Below, piece by piece: positions 39,071-63,081 of a stretch of 64,000 bases of DNA. Below the pieces are notes generated by a model, which was not told where the DNA came from, did no database searches, and saw only the letters and a program-made list of their open reading frames with translations. The position numbers and the translations under genes were made by a program. The DNA comes from Bacteroidota bacterium. GTDB taxonomy: Bacteria > Bacteroidota > Ignavibacteria > Ignavibacteriales > Ignavibacteriaceae. The first letter of the stretch is position 1. The number at the start of each line of letters is the position of its first letter. Location of the stretch: positions 62,001-126,000 of the forward strand of contig JAIUOE010000005.1 in NCBI GenBank assembly GCA_020161395.1. The letters are read 5' to 3'.

Positions 39071-39397
39071 AGTTAACTCCTATATCTGGTTAATTATACT
39101 TGTTTAATTCTGAAAATGTTTCGAATAAAAATGTTTCATTCATACGAGTATAAAATTAACAATTTTTAAGATAACGAAAAAAACATTTATTCGTTAATTC
39201 GATTTTTATTCAACTTTTTTTTTTGTATCTTACTTTTCCAAATGGACGGCTAAAATGCCGGATAAACCGAAATGTCGACCCGGAATCTGACAAAATTTTC
39301 AGTTTACCGAAAGAAAGTGACTTCGGTCAATTCAAATGTCCCGGGGAATCTTAAATTACATTTTCATATTCAGGATTTTATTTTTTTTAACCGTAAT
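39071..39397. other. Divergent regulatory gap
   Basis: This 327-base AT-rich spacer lies between the exbB operon and the WD40 gene. It must hold both promoters. A T-run followed by GTATCTTAC (39225-39233) is a likely -10 region for the plus strand. The open frame from ATG 39272 is read as an untranslated leader because the signal peptide begins at 39398. Nothing else is seen. Confidence 0.4.
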
Positions 39398-41425
39398 ATG
39401 CCAAAAACCCGTAAATTATTTTTTATAGTTATCGCTGCATGTATTACAATTGCAGCACAAAAAGGATATATACTCCCTCAACTCGGTCACGCAGGCACGA
39501 TCAATGCTCTTGCATTTTCCGGTGATGGCAGGTTTATTTTTTCTTCATCAGAAGATAACACGATCATTATGTGGGACGCAGCCACACTCGACCAGTTGAA
39601 TATCTTTGGCGGTCATGGAAAGGCTGTGGTTTCATTTAATGTTGCCGATGGAAATAAAAGAATCATCAGCAGATCGGAGGATAATTCCTTCTCGGTGTGG
39701 GACTGGTTGACTGGTGAACAGCTTTTAAATGCTGAAATTCCCGGTGGTTATAAATCAGACATGTTTCTGGATAAATCTGAAAGTGTCCTCCTCTTCGTAA
39801 CTCCGGATTCGAAGCTTTTTACATGCGATCTTGAAGAAGACGATAGCCCTGTGGAAAGAGGCACCCTCCCTGTTGCAGATATTGCCGCAATCAATTTTCA
39901 AAAAGATGTAGAAATTTTTGCTGTTGCTGATCCATCGGGTGAAGTCTTCCTTATAAACGGTGAAGACCTCTCGGTAATTGGGAAAATGTATCAGAGCTCA
40001 AAAAACAGTTTTCATGAGCTCATATTCTCACCCGACGGCAAATACCTGGCTGGAATTACTGACGATTCTGTAATCTATGTCTGGAATGTGAGCAACAAGT
40101 CGATTGTTTTCAGCACAAGGGGTGAGACAGGATTGCCCCCAAGAGTTGCATTTTTCAACAATTCAAACTTTTTTGTTTATTTCCTGAGTGATATTAAAAT
40201 TTCAGGATATGACCTGGTAAATAAATCCGAAGTTTTTTCGCACAAACCGATGGGAGACATAACTGCGATAGCAATCTCAGGTGACGACAAAAAACTCGCA
40301 GTCGCTTATTTTGATAAATCAGTAGTGCAGTTTGAAATCCCATCTCAAAAAGTTATTAACTCTCATGAACCTGTTGTTGAAAAGGTTACGCAAATAAAAT
40401 TCAGCGCTGATAATTCAATACTTTTGATGGCTACCAACAATTCTTCTTTTCACATATGGAATAAATTTAGCAGTGAGCCACGAAAATATCTGCAAACCTG
40501 GGACGGCTTAATTTCAGCCATGGACATTTCTCCGTCAGGCACTCATTTTGCATATGGCACAATGGATGAGACGATCAGAATTTACAACACCTCTGATGCA
40601 ACTGAAATCAATACCATTTCGGGGAAGCCGGGTACATTTATTAATGTGATTAAATGGAGTAAAACGGACCGTCAGCTTGCCGCCGAGTCAGAAAATCATA
40701 CGATCAAATTCTGGGATATTATGGATGGGAGCAGATTAAAAACTTTTTCCGGTCCACAAAAATCGATAGGTACCATCTCTGTAAGCGATGACGGGAAATT
40801 GATGGCAGCAGGTGGAGTAGAAGGTAATATTTACTTGTGGGACATCAATTCTGAAAGCCTTATTAAAAAATTCGGTGATTTCAACTCACCCGTCACAGGT
40901 ATCAGTTTTATTAAAAAGGGTAAAGAACTTGTTTCCACCTCAGGAAATGGCGACCTCAATTTTTTCAACACAGAAAATTTTTCCAAAAAAGCGGGTCGGT
41001 TAAACTATCAGAATTCTTCTTCTCTGGTTGCATTCTCACCGTCAGGTGAATATGTTGCTGTTTCGAGCGAAAACACCAACTATTTCTTTATTCAGAAAGT
41101 GTTCGACACCCTGGCACCCAGGATGGTGGACATCGCATTTGGTCCAATTGATGCCCTTGAATTCTCCGGAAATTCTAAGTTGCTTCTCGCCTCCTCTGCA
41201 GACAGAGGGCTTTACATATTGGATGTCGCCACCGGAAACCAGCTTGGAACACTCTATTTCTTCGGGTCCGGTGACTGGGCTTTCATCGCAGCGAATGGTG
41301 AATTCGAAGCATCTGAAGGAGGATTGGACTTCCTGAAGTACATCGACAACAACCTGGCATACCCGATTGACAAGAGTGTAAAAAGCCAATATAAAGAGGG
41401 CCTCCTCAGTTCGATCCTCTTTTAA
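39398..41425 (+). CDS. Exported WD40-repeat protein
   Basis: Starting at ATG 39398, the 675-residue product begins with a signal peptide (MPKTRKLFFIVIAACITIAA). The in-frame ATG at 39272 would bury it behind 42 residues. Some twelve WD40-like blades follow, for example INALAFSGDGRFIFSSSEDN, IIMWDAATL, IKFWDIMDGS and IYLWDINSE, enough for two propellers. The last 55 residues (GDWAFIAANGEFEASEGG) resemble the tail found on WD40 parts of caspase-like proteins. No peptidase domain is present. It is probably a periplasmic protein-interaction scaffold. Confidence 0.85.
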   Translation: MPKTRKLFFIVIAACITIAAQKGYILPQLGHAGTINALAFSGDGRFIFSSSEDNTIIMWDAATLDQLNIFGGHGKAVVSFNVADGNKRIISRSEDNSFSVWDWLTGEQLLNAEIPGGYKSDMFLDKSESVLLFVTPDSKLFTCDLEEDDSPVERGTLPVADIAAINFQKDVEIFAVADPSGEVFLINGEDLSVIGKMYQSSKNSFHELIFSPDGKYLAGITDDSVIYVWNVSNKSIVFSTRGETGLPPRVAFFNNSNFFVYFLSDIKISGYDLVNKSEVFSHKPMGDITAIAISGDDKKLAVAYFDKSVVQFEIPSQKVINSHEPVVEKVTQIKFSADNSILLMATNNSSFHIWNKFSSEPRKYLQTWDGLISAMDISPSGTHFAYGTMDETIRIYNTSDATEINTISGKPGTFINVIKWSKTDRQLAAESENHTIKFWDIMDGSRLKTFSGPQKSIGTISVSDDGKLMAAGGVEGNIYLWDINSESLIKKFGDFNSPVTGISFIKKGKELVSTSGNGDLNFFNTENFSKKAGRLNYQNSSSLVAFSPSGEYVAVSSENTNYFFIQKVFDTLAPRMVDIAFGPIDALEFSGNSKLLLASSADRGLYILDVATGNQLGTLYFFGSGDWAFIAANGEFEASEGGLDFLKYIDNNLAYPIDKSVKSQYKEGLLSSILF

Positions 41426-47648: not shown

Positions 47649-48398
47649 CTATTGTAACTGCCATGTGAAGTCGGGGAGTTCATCCTTGTATGACTTCAGG
47701 TTGATCTCTCCCTGCCAGTAGAAGTAGGTGTCTTCTCCGGAGGTGGGATCTTTTACATAATCTGTCTCTGCGTAAAGCTTTGTTGTACCCGAACCTACCT
47801 GCTGGAATTTGATATACTGACCCGGTTCAACTGATCCCATGAATACATCGTCAACATAGATGTGGATCTTGTAGGTCGAGTAGTTCTCTATCTGGAGTGT
47901 GCACTCTTTGGCTCCGGGACCTCTTAAGCTCTTGCCCGATTTCCCTTTTACTGCTGCAGCAAGTTTTGCAAGTTCTGTTGATTTTGCAGCATCGTTACCG
48001 AGGGTTTTTGCACCCCATGCATCTGAACATGCTATAAGAGCCTGGTAGTTGTTCTGATTCGTGGCTTTTGTGGTTGCTTCTTCAAGAAGTGCTTTTCCGG
48101 TTACGGAAGCTTTCTTTCCTGTGGCTGCTTCTTCCATGAAGAGGATCATGGCTGCTGAAACGAGGGCTTTTACATCGCCGTCTCTTCTGCCGTCACTGAT
48201 GATCTCTCCAAGTTTCGAGAGAGCACTGTTGGATGAACCGAATTCAGCTTTGAAATCGATCTTGTTTACATTGACAGTCTTGCCTGCTGCGTTGGTTTTG
48301 CTTTTTATAACTTCCGGTTTTTTCTGTGAGAAACCTGCAAAGTTGAGCAGAAAAAGTGCTGCCAGTGCGAACGCGAAAAATCTGGTGTTGATTTTCAT
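47649..48398 (-). CDS. Exported protein of an unrecognised family, longer paralogue
   Basis: This 249-residue protein has a signal peptide ending near FSQ (residues 23-25). Residues 45-130 form a helical region, GSSNSALSKLGEIISDGRRD, then ALVSAAMILFMEE and SVTGKALLEEAT. The C-terminal part from CTLQIENYSTYKIHIYVDD is a small beta domain that may bind a ligand or partner. The helical part is clearly shared with the gene at 48707-49126. I know no family for it. It is probably periplasmic. A terminator shared with the kinase lies past its end. Confidence 0.75.
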   Translation of the reverse strand: MKINTRFFAFALAALFLLNFAGFSQKKPEVIKSKTNAAGKTVNVNKIDFKAEFGSSNSALSKLGEIISDGRRDGDVKALVSAAMILFMEEAATGKKASVTGKALLEEATTKATNQNNYQALIACSDAWGAKTLGNDAAKSTELAKLAAAVKGKSGKSLRGPGAKECTLQIENYSTYKIHIYVDDVFMGSVEPGQYIKFQQVGSGTTKLYAETDYVKDPTSGEDTYFYWQGEINLKSYKDELPDFTWQLQ

Positions 48399-48706: not shown

Positions 48707-48712
48707 TTACTC
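48682..48712 (-). terminator. Terminator-like hairpin covering a stop codon
   Basis: GAGTAAAAGGT (48682-48692) pairs with ACCTTTTTACTC (48701-48712) with one bulged base. The minus-strand stop TAA of the 139-residue gene lies inside the stem. Only a weak T run follows, so termination is likely but not certain. Confidence 0.5.
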
Positions 48713-49126
48713 GTCGTAAGTCAGTTCGGAAGCGTAATTTTGGTTATTTCCAAATCCGGGATCTTCCCAGAATGAGGCGACGAGCTTCAGGAGTTTTTTA
48801 TTTTTTGCTTTTAGCGCCAAGGTTGTAGCCTCCTGCAATACCGAGAGTCCGGTTATAGACGCTTCAACACCCGAGCATTTTTCTTCCATAAAAAGAATAA
48901 GTGCGGCACTAAGAAGTGTCTCCACACTTTTGTGTGATCTTCCCGATTCAAGAAGTTGTGCCACCTTTGCGAGTGCATTGTTGCTGCTTGCAAAAGTTGT
49001 GGAAAAATCTGTCTTAAATGGTGATTTAATGCCGGTCTGGTTCGGTTTTGATGCAAGAATTTCCTGAGCAAACGATGCCGAGGAGAGTATCAAACCGAAC
49101 CACAATAAAATGCCAAGCTTTCTCAT
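48707..49126 (-). CDS. Exported protein of an unrecognised family, short paralogue
   Basis: This 139-residue protein has a signal peptide (LGILLWFGLILSSASFA). The mature part matches the helical domain of the gene at 47649-48398: ASSNNALAKVAQLLESGRS, LLSAALILFMEE and SITGLSVLQEAT line up without gaps. It lacks the C-terminal beta domain of its neighbour, so it is either a truncated copy or the minimal form of the family. The same strand, the same order and the shared domain point to a tandem duplication. No function known. Confidence 0.75.
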   Translation of the reverse strand: MRKLGILLWFGLILSSASFAQEILASKPNQTGIKSPFKTDFSTTFASSNNALAKVAQLLESGRSHKSVETLLSAALILFMEEKCSGVEASITGLSVLQEATTLALKAKNKKLLKLVASFWEDPGFGNNQNYASELTYDE

Positions 49127-49175: not shown

Positions 49176-52100
49176 TCAGGTTCCGAAAAGTTTCTTTCGT
49201 TCAGTGGTAGAAACAAACCTCCCTTTTTCCCGTATCGTCTCAATGAGCTTCCGGTAGTGAAGTGAAGTCCTTAAAACGGAAACCGAACCAAGAACAATTA
49301 GCTGTTCCTGCGCTCTACTGAGTACAACATTCAGTTTTCTGTCAACTTCCACTTCATTTTCCACACTTTTGTTTTTGCCAAAGGAACCAAGTCTTTCGAG
49401 CTGGGAAGTGTTGGAGACGGAAGTTGAATAAATTATGATTTTGTTTTCAGACCCCTGAAATCTTTCCACTGTATCCACCGGGAGTCCGGTTATTCCCTTC
49501 ATTTCGAGTCTTTGGTTTATGGCTGCAATCTGAGCCCTCCAAGGGGTGATGATACCAATGTCCGGGAGTTCGTCTTTCGGAAGTCCCGAAATTTCCCTGA
49601 TCTTTCCCGCTATCATGCTGACAATCTCAGCCTCGGACTCATTCATTTTACCCGTTTTGGAATATTGGGTCTCAATAAATATCAATCTGTTCCCTGTTAG
49701 AATTTTCGAAAGAGCAGAATCGTCAGGGTTTGGATAAATGGAGTCGAGACTTTCTCTCCCGGAGAGTGCACATTGCAGATTCCCGTGATAATAATGGTTT
49801 ATCAGGTCCATTATTACTTCATGCATCCTGAATTGCTCTTTTAGTGTACCGTATGCATGCGTCCACCCCTTTGCCACAGCAGTGTAAAACATCCTCTCGA
49901 AGAGTGAAACTTTCATATCCCGGATACCCGCTCCGTTCAAGTCAGAATCAGTAATCAAGGTGTTTGCATCACCCTGAACCGTAACGGCAGGTAACTGATT
50001 TTGATCTCCAATCAGGATAAACCTCTGGAAATTGACGATAATACCGGCAAGTTGTGGCTCCAGCAACTGACTCGCCTCATCCACGATGAGAGTATCGAAC
50101 TTAAAGAACGAACTCAGATCCTTGCTGTTTCTTACAAATGACGCCACAGTGGAAGTAACAACCCGAATGCCTTTTATGTACTCCTCGAAACTCTCCAGAT
50201 TGTGCGTTTTCACCATGGTTTTAAGCGAACTTGTATCATCTTCGCTCGCACTGTTGAAAAGATAGTCTATACCTGCCTCTTTCAGTTTCTTGCAGACCTC
50301 CTTTATGGCTTTGTTTGTAAAGGCAAGAATTGTCACCGTTTCCTCCCCGTCTCCGGCAAGAATTGCCTTAATCATCGACATTAGTGCCATGGAAGTCTTT
50401 CCTGTCCCCGGAGGACCCTGAAGCAGGTAATAGTCTTTCGCTGAGAGAGCTTTTTTTACATTTTCTGCCTGACTTTGCTGCATCCCTGTCTCGTCGATTG
50501 ATGGCAGGTCCCCCGAGACCGGAGCCCGGAGACCGAGCAACAATTCCTTCTTTCTTGTATCAGCCTCAAGAAAGTTAAACATCATCCTGACCGTGCTGAT
50601 AATGCCGGAATCTTTGTAATCAGGTTCGATGGCAAAATATTTCCCTGAGTTGAAAACAGTTTTATCGAGCTGCTTGTTAAAAAGCTTAACTGCGACTTTC
50701 TCATTGGTCAGTTCAGCAATGGTTCCCTTTAAAATCTGACATTTTAAAGGTTCCAGCTCATATTCATCGTGGGGATAAAGGATAATAAGATCATTTTCCC
50801 TGAATTTTGATACTTTTTGAATTGTTCTGTCGAAAACAAACGAGTTCTTTTCCTTGTCATGGTGACTGAACTTTAACCCTCTTATAAGACTGAACTGAAA
50901 ATCCTCTTTAATTGCCGGTTGTTGTCTCCAAAGAGATGCAAAACTGGAATCGGTCTGCTCATTGTCATTAGAGGAAATTTTACTGTCAAACAGTTCATTA
51001 ATCATAAATGACACACAGACACGGTAATACTTTTGCTCAAGAGGTGAAGCAGCAGAAAAATTCTTTCGGAATTTTTCGATTTTAGCAGGTGCAAATTTGT
51101 TATTAGACGGGGGATCAAAATTCATAAGGCGGGCAAAAAGTCTGTCGTCGTTCTGCCTGAGCATATTCAAAACGAGGAAAATCTCATTTCTGCCCGTGAG
51201 ATATTCAATCGATTTCTGAGCCATTACGGGGACATTTCTGAAATGGTTGGTATTGGCTTTGGTATAAAAAATGGCACTGTCGCCAAGTCTGTCGAATCCG
51301 TATGTTGATTGCATAAGGAGATTATAAGCGGTTACCTGCATCTCCTCACTTTTCCAGACACCCGATGAACTTGCCAAACCCGATTTTAGCTCGATCACAT
51401 TCTTCCTTTTTGGATCAGTGTTCGAGGATTGAAGAATATCGAGTCGTCCTGTTATTCCAAAAAGTGCCGAATAAAATGTAGGTTCCGTTATAACTGTGTA
51501 CTCCCCTTCCGCACCCCGCAATTTCGGAAGTTCTGCTTTTATTCGAGGGAGATGAACAGTCATTACCTCTGTTTTAACTTTTGGAAGGTCATCTTTGAAA
51601 GTTGTGGCGGAAATCAGATTTTCATTTAGAAACCCGGTGTATGTCTCTTCAAAGTCCACATTGTCGTTGTAAAGATATTCATCAAGAAGATTATTTACGA
51701 GATTTCCTTTGAACATCGCCGAATTTGTTTCCTGTGGAAGGAGTTTTTCGATGATGTAAAGTGCAGGGCTCCTCTCTGCAGAATAAAACAGTGTCCCGAT
51801 ATCCTTCGCCTCAAGAAGGAAATCAGGCTCGAGAACTATCATGGTCCTCGTAAAATCGAGAGAGTACTGATCGGGTCTCTCTTTATTTTGAAGTATGTAG
51901 AAAAAATTCACCTGACTGTATTCAGGAATGAACTGCCCCCACTCGAACAGGTTTTTGGATGGTTTTGATTTATTATCTACATTTCTTTGATTTTCGTAGA
52001 TGATTACAGAGAAATCACCCATCTCTTCCGAGAAACAAAACAATAAAATGTAGTTTTTAGCGTCAGGTCCCTGTTTTTTCTTCACTACTTTTTTTATAGT

Positions 52101-52538
52101 TGCCTGAACAAATTCCACGATCTCTTTGTTTTGCAATCCTTTAAGTCGAAGCAACGGCAGTTTTTCATTCGAGTACAATAACTGGATTGATTCAGGAACG
52201 GGAGTATCCAAAAGGGCAGAAAATACGAGTGATACCGCCTTAATTGCGGCTAAGATCTGATCATCGGGACAGTTGTAAGGGTAGTTGTGTGATGCTTTGT
52301 TTGCAAGTTTTAAGAATCCAAAAAATTCATCTTCGTGTTTTTTGGCTTCAGGATTTTTGTCGAAAAGGTAGACAGCCATATGACTAAGCTGGGAGATACG
52401 GACACCGTGATCCTTTATCAAAGACCTGAGCGTCTCCTCTGAAATTATTCTTAAATTTCTCAGCTTTTCGTCGTTGGTCAATCCACTTGAATGGATTTCC
52501 TCAATTCGTTGAAATACAAATTCTCCCGATAGTGCCAT
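49176..52538 (-). CDS. Dna2/Cas4-like nuclease-superfamily 1 helicase fusion
   Basis: This 1120-residue protein has an N-terminal 300-residue region I cannot place. A PD-(D/E)xK nuclease follows, with Asp367 (GRLDIL), Glu383-x-Lys385 (VIELKSG) and Gln401-x3-Tyr405 (MQVTAY), the motif set of Cas4 and RecB nucleases. The SF1 helicase has Walker A GPPGTGKTS (Lys714), LIVDEASQL as Walker B, GDQNQLPAV and a C-terminal VERFQGSENKI. The layout is that of eukaryotic Dna2. It could process replication or repair intermediates, or foreign DNA. It is a single gene with no defence genes beside it. Confidence 0.87.
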   Translation of the reverse strand: MALSGEFVFQRIEEIHSSGLTNDEKLRNLRIISEETLRSLIKDHGVRISQLSHMAVYLFDKNPEAKKHEDEFFGFLKLANKASHNYPYNCPDDQILAAIKAVSLVFSALLDTPVPESIQLLYSNEKLPLLRLKGLQNKEIVEFVQATIKKVVKKKQGPDAKNYILLFCFSEEMGDFSVIIYENQRNVDNKSKPSKNLFEWGQFIPEYSQVNFFYILQNKERPDQYSLDFTRTMIVLEPDFLLEAKDIGTLFYSAERSPALYIIEKLLPQETNSAMFKGNLVNNLLDEYLYNDNVDFEETYTGFLNENLISATTFKDDLPKVKTEVMTVHLPRIKAELPKLRGAEGEYTVITEPTFYSALFGITGRLDILQSSNTDPKRKNVIELKSGLASSSGVWKSEEMQVTAYNLLMQSTYGFDRLGDSAIFYTKANTNHFRNVPVMAQKSIEYLTGRNEIFLVLNMLRQNDDRLFARLMNFDPPSNNKFAPAKIEKFRKNFSAASPLEQKYYRVCVSFMINELFDSKISSNDNEQTDSSFASLWRQQPAIKEDFQFSLIRGLKFSHHDKEKNSFVFDRTIQKVSKFRENDLIILYPHDEYELEPLKCQILKGTIAELTNEKVAVKLFNKQLDKTVFNSGKYFAIEPDYKDSGIISTVRMMFNFLEADTRKKELLLGLRAPVSGDLPSIDETGMQQSQAENVKKALSAKDYYLLQGPPGTGKTSMALMSMIKAILAGDGEETVTILAFTNKAIKEVCKKLKEAGIDYLFNSASEDDTSSLKTMVKTHNLESFEEYIKGIRVVTSTVASFVRNSKDLSSFFKFDTLIVDEASQLLEPQLAGIIVNFQRFILIGDQNQLPAVTVQGDANTLITDSDLNGAGIRDMKVSLFERMFYTAVAKGWTHAYGTLKEQFRMHEVIMDLINHYYHGNLQCALSGRESLDSIYPNPDDSALSKILTGNRLIFIETQYSKTGKMNESEAEIVSMIAGKIREISGLPKDELPDIGIITPWRAQIAAINQRLEMKGITGLPVDTVERFQGSENKIIIYSTSVSNTSQLERLGSFGKNKSVENEVEVDRKLNVVLSRAQEQLIVLGSVSVLRTSLHYRKLIETIREKGRFVSTTERKKLFGT

Positions 52539-52639: not shown

Positions 52640-54145
52640 CTATAACTCTTCAATAACATCGAGTCCGGAGGGCATAGGCAGATAGAACATAACTTTTTGT
52701 ACCGATCCGTCTTTCCTTACCTGTCTGATGATCCTTTTTCGGATTATCACACTGTGCTCAACATGTACATCATCCTCTATAATCGAACCGAAAATGTAAC
52801 TTGTTCCTTTAATAAGGACATTTTTCCCGAGAATCAGTGGATAGTCATCACTTCCCGTCATATTCACGCTCGATTCAATGACAGAATTTTCACCAATTAT
52901 AATGCTTCCTTTAATGATATCTCCCCAGGAAATTGATACCCCGTCACCAATCGTAAATGTCTGGTGTGGAAATGTTGACAAATGACAGTTTTCGGCAATT
53001 TTTACATTTTTACCGAATACAACATTTCCTTTGATATACACATTCTTTTTGATTTCGACACCATAATTGAGTTTCACACCCTTCCCGATGTGGGCTCCCT
53101 TCCCTATCTTGATATCCAGGGGAATTCCCTCTTTGTCGAGATTTATCAGATCTCTTACCACCCCTTCATCTATGAAGAAATCGTCGGGATCCTGAATTTC
53201 GATGATGTTTTTAAGTTTGTTGTACACAATTTTTTTATACAACTGCTTCATTTCCTTCAGAACTGATTTGTCGTTAAAGCCCATAACCACATACTCGTTT
53301 TTAGGGCTGACAGCATCGACCGAGTAACCGGCTTTGTTGAAAAGGGCAATCAAATCGGTAATGTAGATTTCATTTTGAGCGTTCTGACTCGAGATATTCT
53401 CCACCTGCTCAATCAGTTTTTTATGGTCAAAAGCATAGACACCCGAATTGTATTCACGATTTTCAATAAGTTCATGCTTCGAGTAGGCGTATCGTCTTCC
53501 GTTGTATTCGGTAACATAGTGAACATGATCGCTAAGAGCGAGAATATCTTTGTGCTCCATAATCTCGATTACTTTATTCTCGTCCTTGCCCGCAGGTTGT
53601 CCGTCGATGTCCGTTGACTTCACACGCACTATTCTTCCATACTGATTGGCTTCAATATTTCCCTCATACATGCCTGTCAGTACCATCATATCAGCACCCG
53701 AGTCCTTAAATGCCTTTCTAAACATTGAGACTGTGTCATTGTCTATCAACCCCATGTCACCGGGGAAAACATAAACCACACCAGAGAACCTGTTTTTGTC
53801 CACTTTTTCCAGTCCGACCTGCACAGCATGACCTGTACCGTTCTGAAATTCCTGATAAGCAAAACTTACCTTGTCTCTTTTACCAAAAACGGCAAGTACA
53901 TCCAATGCTTTTATCCCAACCACGAGCACAGTATTCATTGACGAAAACTCGTTGTTGCAGGCATTGTACACCCTCTCCACAGTTGGGATACCCCAAATTG
54001 TATGAAGCATTTTTGAGGTTTGCGATTTAATTCTTTTCCCATGCCCGGCGGCAAGTATAATTGCCACTTCATTTTGTGAATAATCGAGTTCAGAACTAAA
54101 TTCTTCAACCCCCTGATAAACTTGTTGTGCGTATGTCAGTTCCAT
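52640..54145 (-). CDS. GlmU-like nucleotidyltransferase with left-handed beta-helix
   Basis: ATG 54145 has GGAG six bases before it and gives 501 residues; a longer frame would run into the upstream gene. The nucleotidyltransferase domain has LAAGHGKRIKSQTSKMLH (31-48), NGTGHAVQ near 102-109 and VFPGDMGLID. The C-terminal hexapeptide-repeat helix covers about 345-480 (GKGAHIGKGVKLNYGV, GNVVFGKNVKIAENC). This matches GlmU, which makes UDP-GlcNAc, but an N-terminal extension and a linker between domains make the exact sugar uncertain. It is the last gene of the ddl operon. Confidence 0.82.
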   Translation of the reverse strand: MELTYAQQVYQGVEEFSSELDYSQNEVAIILAAGHGKRIKSQTSKMLHTIWGIPTVERVYNACNNEFSSMNTVLVVGIKALDVLAVFGKRDKVSFAYQEFQNGTGHAVQVGLEKVDKNRFSGVVYVFPGDMGLIDNDTVSMFRKAFKDSGADMMVLTGMYEGNIEANQYGRIVRVKSTDIDGQPAGKDENKVIEIMEHKDILALSDHVHYVTEYNGRRYAYSKHELIENREYNSGVYAFDHKKLIEQVENISSQNAQNEIYITDLIALFNKAGYSVDAVSPKNEYVVMGFNDKSVLKEMKQLYKKIVYNKLKNIIEIQDPDDFFIDEGVVRDLINLDKEGIPLDIKIGKGAHIGKGVKLNYGVEIKKNVYIKGNVVFGKNVKIAENCHLSTFPHQTFTIGDGVSISWGDIIKGSIIIGENSVIESSVNMTGSDDYPLILGKNVLIKGTSYIFGSIIEDDVHVEHSVIIRKRIIRQVRKDGSVQKVMFYLPMPSGLDVIEEL

Positions 54146-54168
54146 TGTACACTCCGGATTTTTGTTAA

Positions 54169-54513
54169 TTACTTGCTTTCCTCGATCCACTTCTTCCATG
54201 TTTCCGGTTCATAACCGACGGTACATTTTTTACCGTTCCTCACAACCGGAGTTTTCAGAAGAAGAGAATCATCCAATAATTTTGTGAATTTATCAAAGAC
54301 CATATACTGCATGTTCAGCTTTTTATAACGGTCGGAATTTTCATCAAAGACTTCCTCAATATCAAGAACTGCTGTGATGTTTTCCAGTTCTCCTTTTGAC
54401 AGCCCTTTTTCATTCAAATCTCTAAAATGAAAGGGTACCCGCCTTTCCTTAAAATATCTTTCTGCCTTCTGTGTCTCACGACATTTTTTTGTACCAATTA
54501 TAATAATGTTCAT
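54169..54513 (-). CDS. ArsC/Spx-family thioredoxin-fold protein
   Basis: This 114-residue protein fits the ArsC-like (YffB) family: a start IIIIGTKKCRETQKAERYF with one cysteine (Cys11) in the active-site loop, RRVPFHFRDLNEKGLSK, and a C-terminal LLKTPVVRNGKKCTVGYEPETW. The invariant arginines of true arsenate reductase are not clearly seen, so reduction of arsenate is unproven even though arsR-arsM lies 19 kb away. It sits in the ddl-rarA operon, 23 bases before the nucleotidyltransferase gene. Confidence 0.82.
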   Translation of the reverse strand: MNIIIIGTKKCRETQKAERYFKERRVPFHFRDLNEKGLSKGELENITAVLDIEEVFDENSDRYKKLNMQYMVFDKFTKLLDDSLLLKTPVVRNGKKCTVGYEPETWKKWIEESK

Positions 54514-54557: not shown

Positions 54558-55853
54558 CTAATACTTCTTGAAACCCTTCCAAATAGCTGCAAGTCTTTCC
54601 TTGATGGTTTTTTCGCTGCCGTTTTCTGAAGGAAGATAATACTGCCGCCCTTTCAATTCTTTTGGGAGATACTCCTCCTGTAAAAAATGACCGGGATAGC
54701 TGTGTGGATATCGGTAGTTTGCGCCGTAACCGATATTTTTCATGTAACCGGTGGGTGCATTTCGCAGATGAAGTGGAACTGCATGGAGTGGTTCCTTCTC
54801 AACATCGGCGAGTGCCTTGTCGATTGCCTGATAAGATGCATTACTTTTAGGAGAAGATGCAAGGTAAGTGGCACATTGAGACAGAATTATCCGTGCCTCG
54901 GGCATCCCGATTTTATCAACAGCAGAAAAAGTTGCCTCAGCGAGCAAAAGGGCATTGGGCGAGGCGTTTCCGATATCTTCAGATGCCAGGATTATCATTC
55001 TTCTCGCGATAAAAAGAGGGTCTTCACCTCCGGCAAGCATTCTTGCCATCCAGTAAACAGCGGCATCGGGATCACTTCCTCTGATACTTTTTATGAATGC
55101 AGAGATGATGTTATAATGTTCTTCACCCGCTTTGTCGTAAATAATGTTCTTTTTCTGGATGACATTCTCAATTTCAGCCTGACCAATCGTTACTTTCGCA
55201 GCTTCAGGACTCGACAACACAATCGCTTCAACGATATTCAAAGCAGACCGGGCATCACCTCCTGAAACAAGGTAAAGATAGTCGAATGCAATATCATCAA
55301 AATCGACTTTTGCCATCGAGAGTACCGGGTCATTCGTCAAAGCCCCCTTTATTATCCCCGTAATGTCCTGCTCCGCAAGCTCATTCAGTTTGAAAATTCT
55401 CATCCTCGATCTTAGAGCCGGGATTACTTCAAAGGAAGGATTTTCGGTAGTGGCGCCAATAAGAGTAATTGTTCCCTGTTCCACAGAACCGAGCAACGCA
55501 TCCTGCTGCCCTTTGTTGAACCTGTGGATTTCATCGATAAAAAGAATTGTCTTAAATCCTTTTGTTTTCTCTTCGAGAGCCTTGGCAATAATCTCTCTTA
55601 CTTCCTTGACGCCTGAAGAAACGGCATTAATTTGATGAAATTTAGAACCCGTGGAATGTGCAATAATCTTGGCTATGGTTGTTTTGCCCGTACCGGGTGG
55701 ACCCCAAAGGAGAAAGGAGGAAATAAACCCCGACTCAATCATATTACGCAGGGGTTTTCCTTTTGCAAGGAGGTGTTCCTGCCCCTTAAAATCGTCAAGT
55801 TTGAGAGGTCTGCATCTTTCGGCGAGGGGAACAAAACTTTCATTAAGAGTCAT
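54558..55853 (-). CDS. rarA: Replication-associated recombination protein RarA/MgsA
   Basis: This 431-residue AAA+ ATPase has Walker A GPPGTGKTT (Lys57), Walker B ILFIDEIHRF (103-112), sensor TTENPSFEVIPALRSR, and the RarA-specific C-terminal half with YWMARMLAGGEDPLFIARR and the YKYPH-like NYRYPHSYPG. It acts on stalled replication forks with single-stranded DNA binding protein. The gene overlaps the stop of the FtsB-like gene by four bases (ATGA). Confidence 0.96.
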   Translation of the reverse strand: MTLNESFVPLAERCRPLKLDDFKGQEHLLAKGKPLRNMIESGFISSFLLWGPPGTGKTTIAKIIAHSTGSKFHQINAVSSGVKEVREIIAKALEEKTKGFKTILFIDEIHRFNKGQQDALLGSVEQGTITLIGATTENPSFEVIPALRSRMRIFKLNELAEQDITGIIKGALTNDPVLSMAKVDFDDIAFDYLYLVSGGDARSALNIVEAIVLSSPEAAKVTIGQAEIENVIQKKNIIYDKAGEEHYNIISAFIKSIRGSDPDAAVYWMARMLAGGEDPLFIARRMIILASEDIGNASPNALLLAEATFSAVDKIGMPEARIILSQCATYLASSPKSNASYQAIDKALADVEKEPLHAVPLHLRNAPTGYMKNIGYGANYRYPHSYPGHFLQEEYLPKELKGRQYYLPSENGSEKTIKERLAAIWKGFKKY

Positions 55854-62349: not shown

Positions 62350-63081
62350 TTGATCAAATTCAAGCAATTAACCAAAAAGTTCGGCTCTTTCACAGCCGTG
62401 AATTCCATCGACCTCCACATAAAAAAGGGGTCTCTTTTCGGATTCCTGGGACCAAACGGAGCGGGTAAATCAACTTCAATTAAGATGCTCACCGGTATAT
62501 ACTCTCTGACCGAAGGTGATATTGAAGTTAAAGGAATTAGCATTCTTAAAGATGCACAAGCGATAAAGCTCATCACAGGTTATATTCCCGATCAGCCATT
62601 TCTTTATGACAGGCTTACCGGTCTGGAATTTCTTTATTTCTGCGGGGGGCTTTACAATCTCGATAAAAAGAGTGTGAAATCAAGAATCGATGAAATGATT
62701 GATACTCTTAAACTTGGCGACTGGCTCAACAAACGAACCGAAGAATACTCACAAGGAATGAAACAGCGAGTGGCGATTGCATCCGCTTTCCTTCACCACC
62801 CCGAACTGATAATTCTCGATGAACCTATGGTCGGTCTCGATCCGCAGTCGGCTGTGTTGGTGAAACAATTTTTGAAACGGAAATCAGAAGAAGGGATTAC
62901 TGTTTTTATGTCGACCCACAGCCTCAATGTAGTGGAAGAAATCTGCACTGATGTCGGCATTATCAACAAAGGAAAAATAATCTTTTCGGGCGGGCTTGAA
63001 GAACTCCTTTCCATGAAAAAAGAGTTGAGCCACAACTTTGAAACTCTGTTTATTGAACTGACAAGCGAGACTGAAAATTAG
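62350..63081 (+). CDS. ABC transporter ATP-binding protein
   Basis: This 243-residue ATPase starts with TTG at 62350; the family begins at the same place (MIKFKQLTKKFG). It has Walker A GPNGAGKST (Lys40), the signature YSQGMKQR, Walker B LIILDEPMVGLD and the switch His in STHSLN. It is of the drug or lipid export type (CcmA-like), single-domain. Its stop touches the ATG of the permease gene, so the two form one transporter. The substrate is unknown. Confidence 0.94.
   Translation: MIKFKQLTKKFGSFTAVNSIDLHIKKGSLFGFLGPNGAGKSTSIKMLTGIYSLTEGDIEVKGISILKDAQAIKLITGYIPDQPFLYDRLTGLEFLYFCGGLYNLDKKSVKSRIDEMIDTLKLGDWLNKRTEEYSQGMKQRVAIASAFLHHPELIILDEPMVGLDPQSAVLVKQFLKRKSEEGITVFMSTHSLNVVEEICTDVGIINKGKIIFSGGLEELLSMKKELSHNFETLFIELTSETEN

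Follow-up and report, generated by a model that had tools for sequence, protein, structure and literature searches.

An iron-sulfur-free DNA2-like nuclease-helicase of Bacteroidota with a probable role in genome maintenance rather than phage defense

The window analyzed here is a 64,000-nucleotide stretch from a Bacteroidota bacterium of the family Ignavibacteriaceae (GenBank assembly GCA_020161395.1, contig JAIUOE010000005.1, positions 62,001 to 126,000 of the forward strand). It carries a gene, present as a single copy in the source genome, whose 1120-residue product resembles the eukaryotic nuclease-helicase DNA2, which processes DNA ends and flaps in human cells. We conclude that this protein is probably a DNA2-type genome-maintenance enzyme free of the iron-sulfur (Fe-S) cluster. 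The original prediction, made from the sequence alone, left a housekeeping role and single-gene defense side by side. Our analysis resolves this choice toward housekeeping, because at least two families carry the gene almost universally, it is syntenic within its genus and its neighbors elsewhere are varied and mostly of housekeeping type; a resident gene for genome maintenance is thus the better reading, and defense is less likely. The open reading frame is real: it begins with ATG on the minus strand, and many stops interrupt the frame read on the plus strand. A chance origin is excluded by its conservation, by purifying selection (dN/dS 0.083 against genome G003) and by its structure model. 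The database annotation of one homologue names it only ‘AAA domain-containing protein’.

Sequence profile, fold and collinearity all back the description of the protein as Dna2-like. When the Protein Data Bank was searched with a 70-sequence family profile, mouse DNA2 was the best match (E 3.4e-79), with profile positions 333-1101 aligned to chain positions 258-1038 in one collinear stretch that spans nuclease, stalk, barrel and helicase. In this alignment an L-x-x-R-N motif (R450, N451) is common to the family and mouse DNA2, and D367 pairs with mouse D278. Residue 282 is an asparagine, at a position where histidine is presumably the usual residue of RecB/DNA2-type nucleases. The AlphaFold model of the full-length protein (pLDDT 90.9, pTM 0.92) has DNA2 as its top Foldseek match (E 6e-45, 1116 columns, TM 0.61/0.65, rmsd 7.8), and the VIA structure comparison aligns 886 of its residues to DNA2 (rmsd 5.0, Z 24.4, rank 36), although compact helicases score higher there, with Ighmbp2 (Z 34.2, 542 residues) at the top. 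The two proteins share an OB fold, a RecB-type nuclease, a stalk, a beta barrel and a superfamily 1B (SF1B) helicase in the same order (mouse structures 5eaw, 5ean and 5eax); the window protein differs in lacking the Fe-S cysteines and in having an extra HEPN-like domain in front. The label ‘branch of DNA2’ is used here in the sense of profile and fold, not of a tree. D278 of mouse DNA2 is the residue mutated in the nuclease-dead enzyme (PMC4716839).

The catalytic residues are present and invariant. D367, E383-x-K385 and Q401-x3-Y405 lie exactly where the original prediction placed them, and their conservation among orthologues, which it had named beforehand as a test, is complete. We aligned 99 proteins (P0001, 18 from individually searched genomes and 80 from GTDB contig stretches, a few rows being duplicates or near-duplicates). 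All 99 keep E352, G364, R365, D367, E383, K385, Q401, Y405, R450 and N451 on the nuclease side, and K714, T715, D820, E821, Q848, R904, Q1028 and R1075 on the helicase side; the catalytic residues are likewise kept in seven of seven further homologues, including those of Bacteroides, Phocaeicola and Prevotella. The SF1 helicase predicted in the same polypeptide was found by Pfam, with strong scores, and by NCBIfam, at about residues 681-1110. In the nuclease region the family models match weakly: PF08696 (Dna2) at residues 213-333 (E 0.001, Pfam) and a Cas4 model at residues 346-430 (22.6 bits against a cut-off of 65, NCBIfam). One homologue (G254:C29:1639-4482) is a 1473-residue open frame in which the match is interrupted between residues 759 and 781, which suggests an insertion in its helicase.

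The absence of an Fe-S cysteine cluster around the nuclease, also part of the original prediction, is borne out and extends across the family. The protein has six cysteines, at residues 90, 168, 508, 600, 749 and 923; the nuclease domain has none, and the whole stretch from 169 to 507 is free of them. None of 106 homologues carries the DNA2-like pattern C-x(1-4)-C-x(4-12)-C in the 150 residues that follow R450-N451. A single cysteine column is conserved in the family nuclease (position 250, 84 of 94 letters), and the window protein has leucine there. In the profile alignment, the mouse DNA2 segment CKYCSQIGNC, whose cysteines we take to be those of the Fe-S cluster, is an insertion relative to the family. 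Because the cluster cysteines are absent, we do not file the protein in the iron-staple class of DNA2 and its bacterial relative Bad. It shares the RecB-family nuclease core with the Cas4/AddB iron-staple nucleases, along with the weak Cas4 match, but differs from them in having no nuclease cysteine and in being fused to a helicase. For the same reasons, and given the low score, the protein does not fit the description of Cas4, a stand-alone Fe-S nuclease. By description, the nearest characterized bacterial relative we found is Bad of Geobacillus, a nuclease-SF1B helicase fusion that also resembles DNA2 (PMC7430649). Unlike the window protein, Bad is reported to contain an Fe-S cluster, probably bound by four cysteines, to occur rarely and sporadically, and to be adjoined by a methyltransferase gene in Geobacilli (PMC7430649); none of these features is seen here.

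The large N-terminal region had been called unknown in the original prediction, which proposed structure prediction as a check. That description does not survive the model: in place of some 300 residues without an assigned fold there are a HEPN-like bundle (residues 1-113) and an OB fold (residues 133-240), and the nuclease starts near residue 239. These assignments rest on VIA Z-scores and on DUF4145 matches. Predicted alone, residues 1-240 reach a pLDDT of 91.7. Nine of the 11 best VIA rows for residues 1-113 are titled HEPN or HepT toxin (the other two are 7bxo, a toxin-antitoxin entry, and 1wty, a probable nucleotidyl transferase), the best being 2hsb over 113 residues with rmsd 2.7 and Z 11.4, a value that for a helical bundle, being below 13, is inconclusive alone. 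Independently of the fold comparison, the N-termini of 12 of 66 homologues match the HEPN family DUF4145 at E <= 1 (best 9.6e-6), whereas the runner-up family is matched by two; the window copy’s own N-terminus has no DUF4145 match in Pfam. For residues 133-240, VIA returns the OB folds of SSB, PriB, Teb1 and RPA (Z up to 9.8, 80-94 residues). Foldseek on the N-terminal model gave nothing below E 0.001, the best OB match for residues 133-240 having E 0.004.

We read the HEPN-like domain as regulatory or structural, because its RNase motif is not kept, members of one family have short N-termini, and its rate of change is the highest in the gene. What we take to be the HEPN RNase motif, R-x4-6-H, is absent from the window copy, which has L76 and then N80-x3-H84. 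Arginine occupies position 76 in 58 of 66 homologues; H84 is kept in 15, and N80 and H84 together in 13. Only 9-120 residues precede the nuclease in four members checked from the family that we label f7. When the gene is divided into five parts, dN/dS peaks in the HEPN part, at 0.125, compared with 0.083 over the full gene. The window protein resembles HEPN/DUF4145 proteins in the fold of residues 1-113 and in the DUF4145 matches of its homologues, and differs from them in the leucine at position 76 and in the fusion to OB and DNA2-type modules. A paper of 2013 lists DUF4145-type HEPN domains joined with modules of the restriction-nuclease, SF2-helicase and ‘UvrD helicase (endoV alpha subunit)’ kinds (PMC3710099). 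In mouse DNA2 the OB fold, which also stands before the nuclease, binds Rpa, and no binding of DNA was seen with the isolated domain (PMC4716839).

The gene is widespread in some families and scarce in others. Homologues were sought in 59 relatives, in 395 genomes drawn evenly from the phylum and in the GTDB contig collection; family-wide presence was counted with the profile at E <= 1e-60. Of the 100 genomes of family f34, 95 carry the gene, and of its 99 genera, 94 do. There is one match in 90 of the 95; in four of the others a single copy seems to have been split, and G569 may hold an additional, partial one. All 23 genomes of f7 carry it, the match being split in G148. We take f34 to be Saprospiraceae, by inference, because three of its members fall in the Saprospiraceae/Lewinellaceae clade of the gene tree. 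The phylum sample gave a homologue in 51 of 395 genomes at E <= 1e-20, with at most two candidates scored per genome, so this is probably a lower bound. In the GTDB contigs there are at least 531 relatives among at least 591 candidate stretches, and the best 80 were kept, those with names being Bacteroidota, Ignavibacteria, Kapabacteria and Cloacimonadota. In a quick gene tree (LG+G4, SH-aLRT support only), Saprospiraceae, Kapabacteria and Dysgonomonadaceae copies mostly cluster by taxon, with L050 (named Saprospiraceae) and L115 (named Ignavibacteria) placed elsewhere. The window genus joins G027 (support 94) and two other sequences of its class (87), and the copy of G005 sits with Chitinophaga (91). 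Universality and synteny in the phylum, which the original prediction had said would favor repair, were therefore found in part: the gene is near-universal in two families and syntenic in its genus, but occurs in the stated fraction of the phylum sample and in few genomes of its own family.

In all four genomes of the genus the order is RarA, ArsC-like, GlmU-like, the nuclease-helicase gene and two small secreted-looking proteins, and in G027, from another genus, the ArsC-like, GlmU-like and DNA2-like genes are also consecutive. All 41 genomes of the order that were searched have the GlmU-like gene. Among 16 stretches from genomes of the order that lack a full-length copy, none has the window’s neighbors beside the GlmU-like gene, so gain and loss within the family look alike. 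Outside the genus the neighbors are varied and mostly of housekeeping type. The original prediction, which called for a neighbor search across genomes, held that the gene stands alone, and this agrees with our finding that no neighbor family recurs in more than seven of 80 loci (gene calls being longest-ORF guesses). We scanned 134 of 142 immediate neighbors (80-1000 residues; eight left out for length). PADLOC at 1e-10 matched eight models, each in one or two of these neighbors: two for WYL, two that are ZorB/MotB-like, one for a homing endonuclease and three others. Among the 25 of 122 Pfam families listed for these neighbors are RecJ (four), RuvC (two) and SSB (two), a hint of a repair context that has no background count. 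The defense-island location that was to be checked is not seen, since few defense-model matches occur among the 134 neighbors or the 44 other ORFs of the window, six models being matched in the latter at the same threshold as a rough background.

Several observations weigh against a genome-maintenance role. The nuclease, helicase and ATPase activities of human DNA2 all depend on its Fe-S cluster, and activity is lost without it (PMC7311471), so activity without a cluster is not guaranteed. In the window genome’s own family the gene is present in only six of 80 genomes (all four genus members, G027 and G005) and is dispensable there. It also changes rapidly: its dN/dS exceeds the 0.000-0.069 of 11 neighbors against the same genome, and its identity is 53-56% in G001 and G002 against 54-90% for neighbors, although a secreted protein of 139 residues is about equally divergent in G001 (54% against 53%). 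Rapid change, fastest in the HEPN part, would also suit a gene involved in conflict. Defense proteins often contain HEPN domains (PMC3710099), and the helicase part alone matches defense models strongly (MkoA, E 9e-60, residues 772-1104; PLuB helicase, E 8e-55, residues 685-1101). AddB-type nucleases coexist with the enzyme, leaving the need for it unexplained.

Some of these points would suit a single-gene anti-phage system, in which the protein senses phage ends, or SSB on phage DNA, and degrades DNA or triggers its HEPN domain in the manner of Nhi-type nuclease-helicases. The mix of HEPN, nuclease and helicase, the fast evolution, the patchiness in the own family and the helicase-only model matches all speak for it, as does the precedent of Nhi, described as a nuclease-helicase encoded by one gene and dependent on phage SSB for its activity (PMC12904381). 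As in Nhi (PMC12904381), a nuclease and a helicase that act on DNA are coupled in Hachiman and further defenses of this kind. We nevertheless consider this explanation unlikely, as the distribution and neighborhood of the window gene fit a resident gene: it is near-universal in two families, mostly with one match per genome, and has few defense-type neighbors. Matches in mobile elements are partial, with nine loci in viral contigs confined to residues 605-1115, one record in a phage collection covering residues 768-1089 (helicase only), and none of 86 partial matches in a plasmid collection covering 80% of the protein. Among the 25 of 31 PADLOC matches listed for the protein itself, each is helicase-only or part-nuclease and none spans both; no row there is named Nhi, and no direct comparison with Nhi was made.

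An enzyme of RNA or R-loops is considerably less probable. It would draw on the Upf1/Senataxin branch of helicases and on HEPN domains often being RNases, and it gains from the presence of Ighmbp2, Upf1 and Sen1 among the next best matches after DNA2 (profile, Foldseek), from the top VIA score of Ighmbp2 and from the N-x3-H motif of the window copy. DNA2 nonetheless ranks above all Upf1-type matches in both the profile and Foldseek searches, and the DNA nuclease site is invariant, whereas the N80-H84 pair is kept in so few homologues; the short N-termini in f7 also argue against an RNase role. Most improbable of all is a part in a novel restriction-like system such as that proposed for Bad. 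The suggestion follows from Bad being the nearest characterized bacterial relative found and from its methyltransferase neighbor in Geobacilli (PMC7430649), but the window gene has no widely recurring neighbor in 80 loci, and no methyltransferase appears among the listed Pfam families of its neighbors.

Replacement of AddAB by the DNA2-like enzyme was also considered and is rejected. Almost every genome searched has PF12705, an AddB-type nuclease domain that also occurs in AddA: all 59 relatives, 95 of the 100 genomes in f34 and all 23 in f7. These counts refer to this single domain and not to complete AddAB pairs. Some of the f7 matches are the DNA2-like ORF itself; a separate strong match (E <= 2e-21, in another frame) is present in 20 of the 23.

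If the genome-maintenance enzyme that we favor works as its anatomy suggests, its mode of action would be DNA2-like. In the model, stalk and barrel connect the RecB-family nuclease with an SF1B helicase of the Upf1/DNA2 type, and the OB fold and HEPN-like bundle stand in front. In the mechanism that homology makes most likely, the nuclease tunnel would take in a 5’ flap or the end of a single strand, the motor would run 5’ to 3’ along the threaded strand using ATP, and the D367/E383/K385 site would cleave the strand with metal. The enzyme would in this way trim overhangs, flaps or intermediates at forks. A single-strand-binding protein or another partner could dock on the OB fold, and the HEPN-like domain could be a structural or regulatory module. 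The cellular role would then be chromosomal genome maintenance, beside AddAB-type enzymes.

More tentatively, one could envision an Fe-S-free, largely vertically inherited branch of DNA2 on which large groups of bacteria rely as a core factor in replication and repair (Saprospiraceae, Kapabacteria and their relatives, with gut Bacteroides also carrying it). It would do DNA2’s eukaryotic job of trimming flaps and overhangs at forks and breaks, with the OB fold docked on SSB and the HEPN-like domain as a switch; we regard this broader picture as possible, though somewhat less likely than not. If true, the cluster needed by human DNA2 can be dispensed with. DNA2 has been thought confined to eukaryotes and archaea, and Bad, the only relative studied in bacteria, is said to occur rarely and sporadically (PMC7430649); here a DNA2 relative is near-universal, and mostly single-copy, across whole bacterial families. 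Such families offer a natural test of the purpose of the Fe-S cluster, and of the job of a DNA2-type enzyme beside AddAB. Our literature search on bacterial DNA2-like, HEPN or DUF4145 nuclease-helicases, judged from titles and abstract openings and with subscription papers mostly outside its scope, found no description of the family. In the CoCoNuTs paper, two passages that mention Dna2 concern the helicase family in general (PMC11090510).

Table 1. Positions in the window of the nuclease-helicase gene, its parts and its co-directional neighbors.
Feature	Position	Strand	Evidence
Whole gene, 1120-residue DNA2-like nuclease-helicase	49176..52538	minus	ATG start, Pfam, profile, structure model
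HEPN-like bundle of helices, residues 1-125 (fold matched over 1-113)	52164..52538	minus	Fold comparison, DUF4145 matches in homologues
Residues 133-238, predicted OB fold before nuclease, as in mouse DNA2	51825..52142	minus	Fold comparison
Residues 239-475, RecB/Cas4/DNA2-type PD-(D/E)XK nuclease, without cysteine	51114..51824	minus	Profile, alignment
Nuclease catalytic D367, E383, K385, Q401, Y405	51324..51440	minus	99/99 invariant; D367 pairs with mouse DNA2 D278
Residues 476-680, linker of stalk helices and beta barrel resembling that of DNA2/Upf1-type helicases, borders approximate	50499..51113	minus	Profile, structure model, VIA
Residues 681-1120, SF1 helicase core, DNA2/Upf1 type	49179..50498	minus	Pfam, NCBIfam, profile, Foldseek
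Walker A GPPGTGKT (708-715)	50394..50417	minus	Sequence, family alignment
Walker B DEAS (820-823)	50070..50081	minus	Sequence, family alignment
GlmU-like nucleotidyltransferase/hexapeptide gene, directly upstream, same strand	52640..54199	minus	Pfam
RarA/MgsA-type AAA ATPase gene, same co-directional run	54558..55853	minus	Pfam, genus synteny
Two small secreted-looking proteins, mutually similar, directly downstream	47649-48398, 48707-49126	minus	No Pfam match over cut-off; kept 4/4 in genus

Some local arrangements recur on a small scale. A RecJ gene lies directly before the homologue in L052, L058, L070 and L114, and a DUF3467 gene directly after it in L051, L079, L087 and L093, all Cloacimonadota. 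The two best plasmid records are from Bacteroides/Phocaeicola. In one of the two, L142 from the Bacteroides finegoldii ‘plasmid 23’ (177 kb), dxs, tatA/tatC and a murF-type gene lie near the homologue, and this record looks like chromosomal sequence.

The six PADLOC models matched elsewhere in the window were traced with 20 of the 44 ORFs. Three lead to one ABC-transporter ATPase (62350-63081), PDC-M43B to two histidine kinases and HEAT-ARM_XIII to a WD40 protein; mad2 has one member in the window, whose source ORF was not located among the 20 traced. A protein of 717 residues, made up largely of WD40 propeller repeats, is encoded at 39272-41425 on the plus strand.

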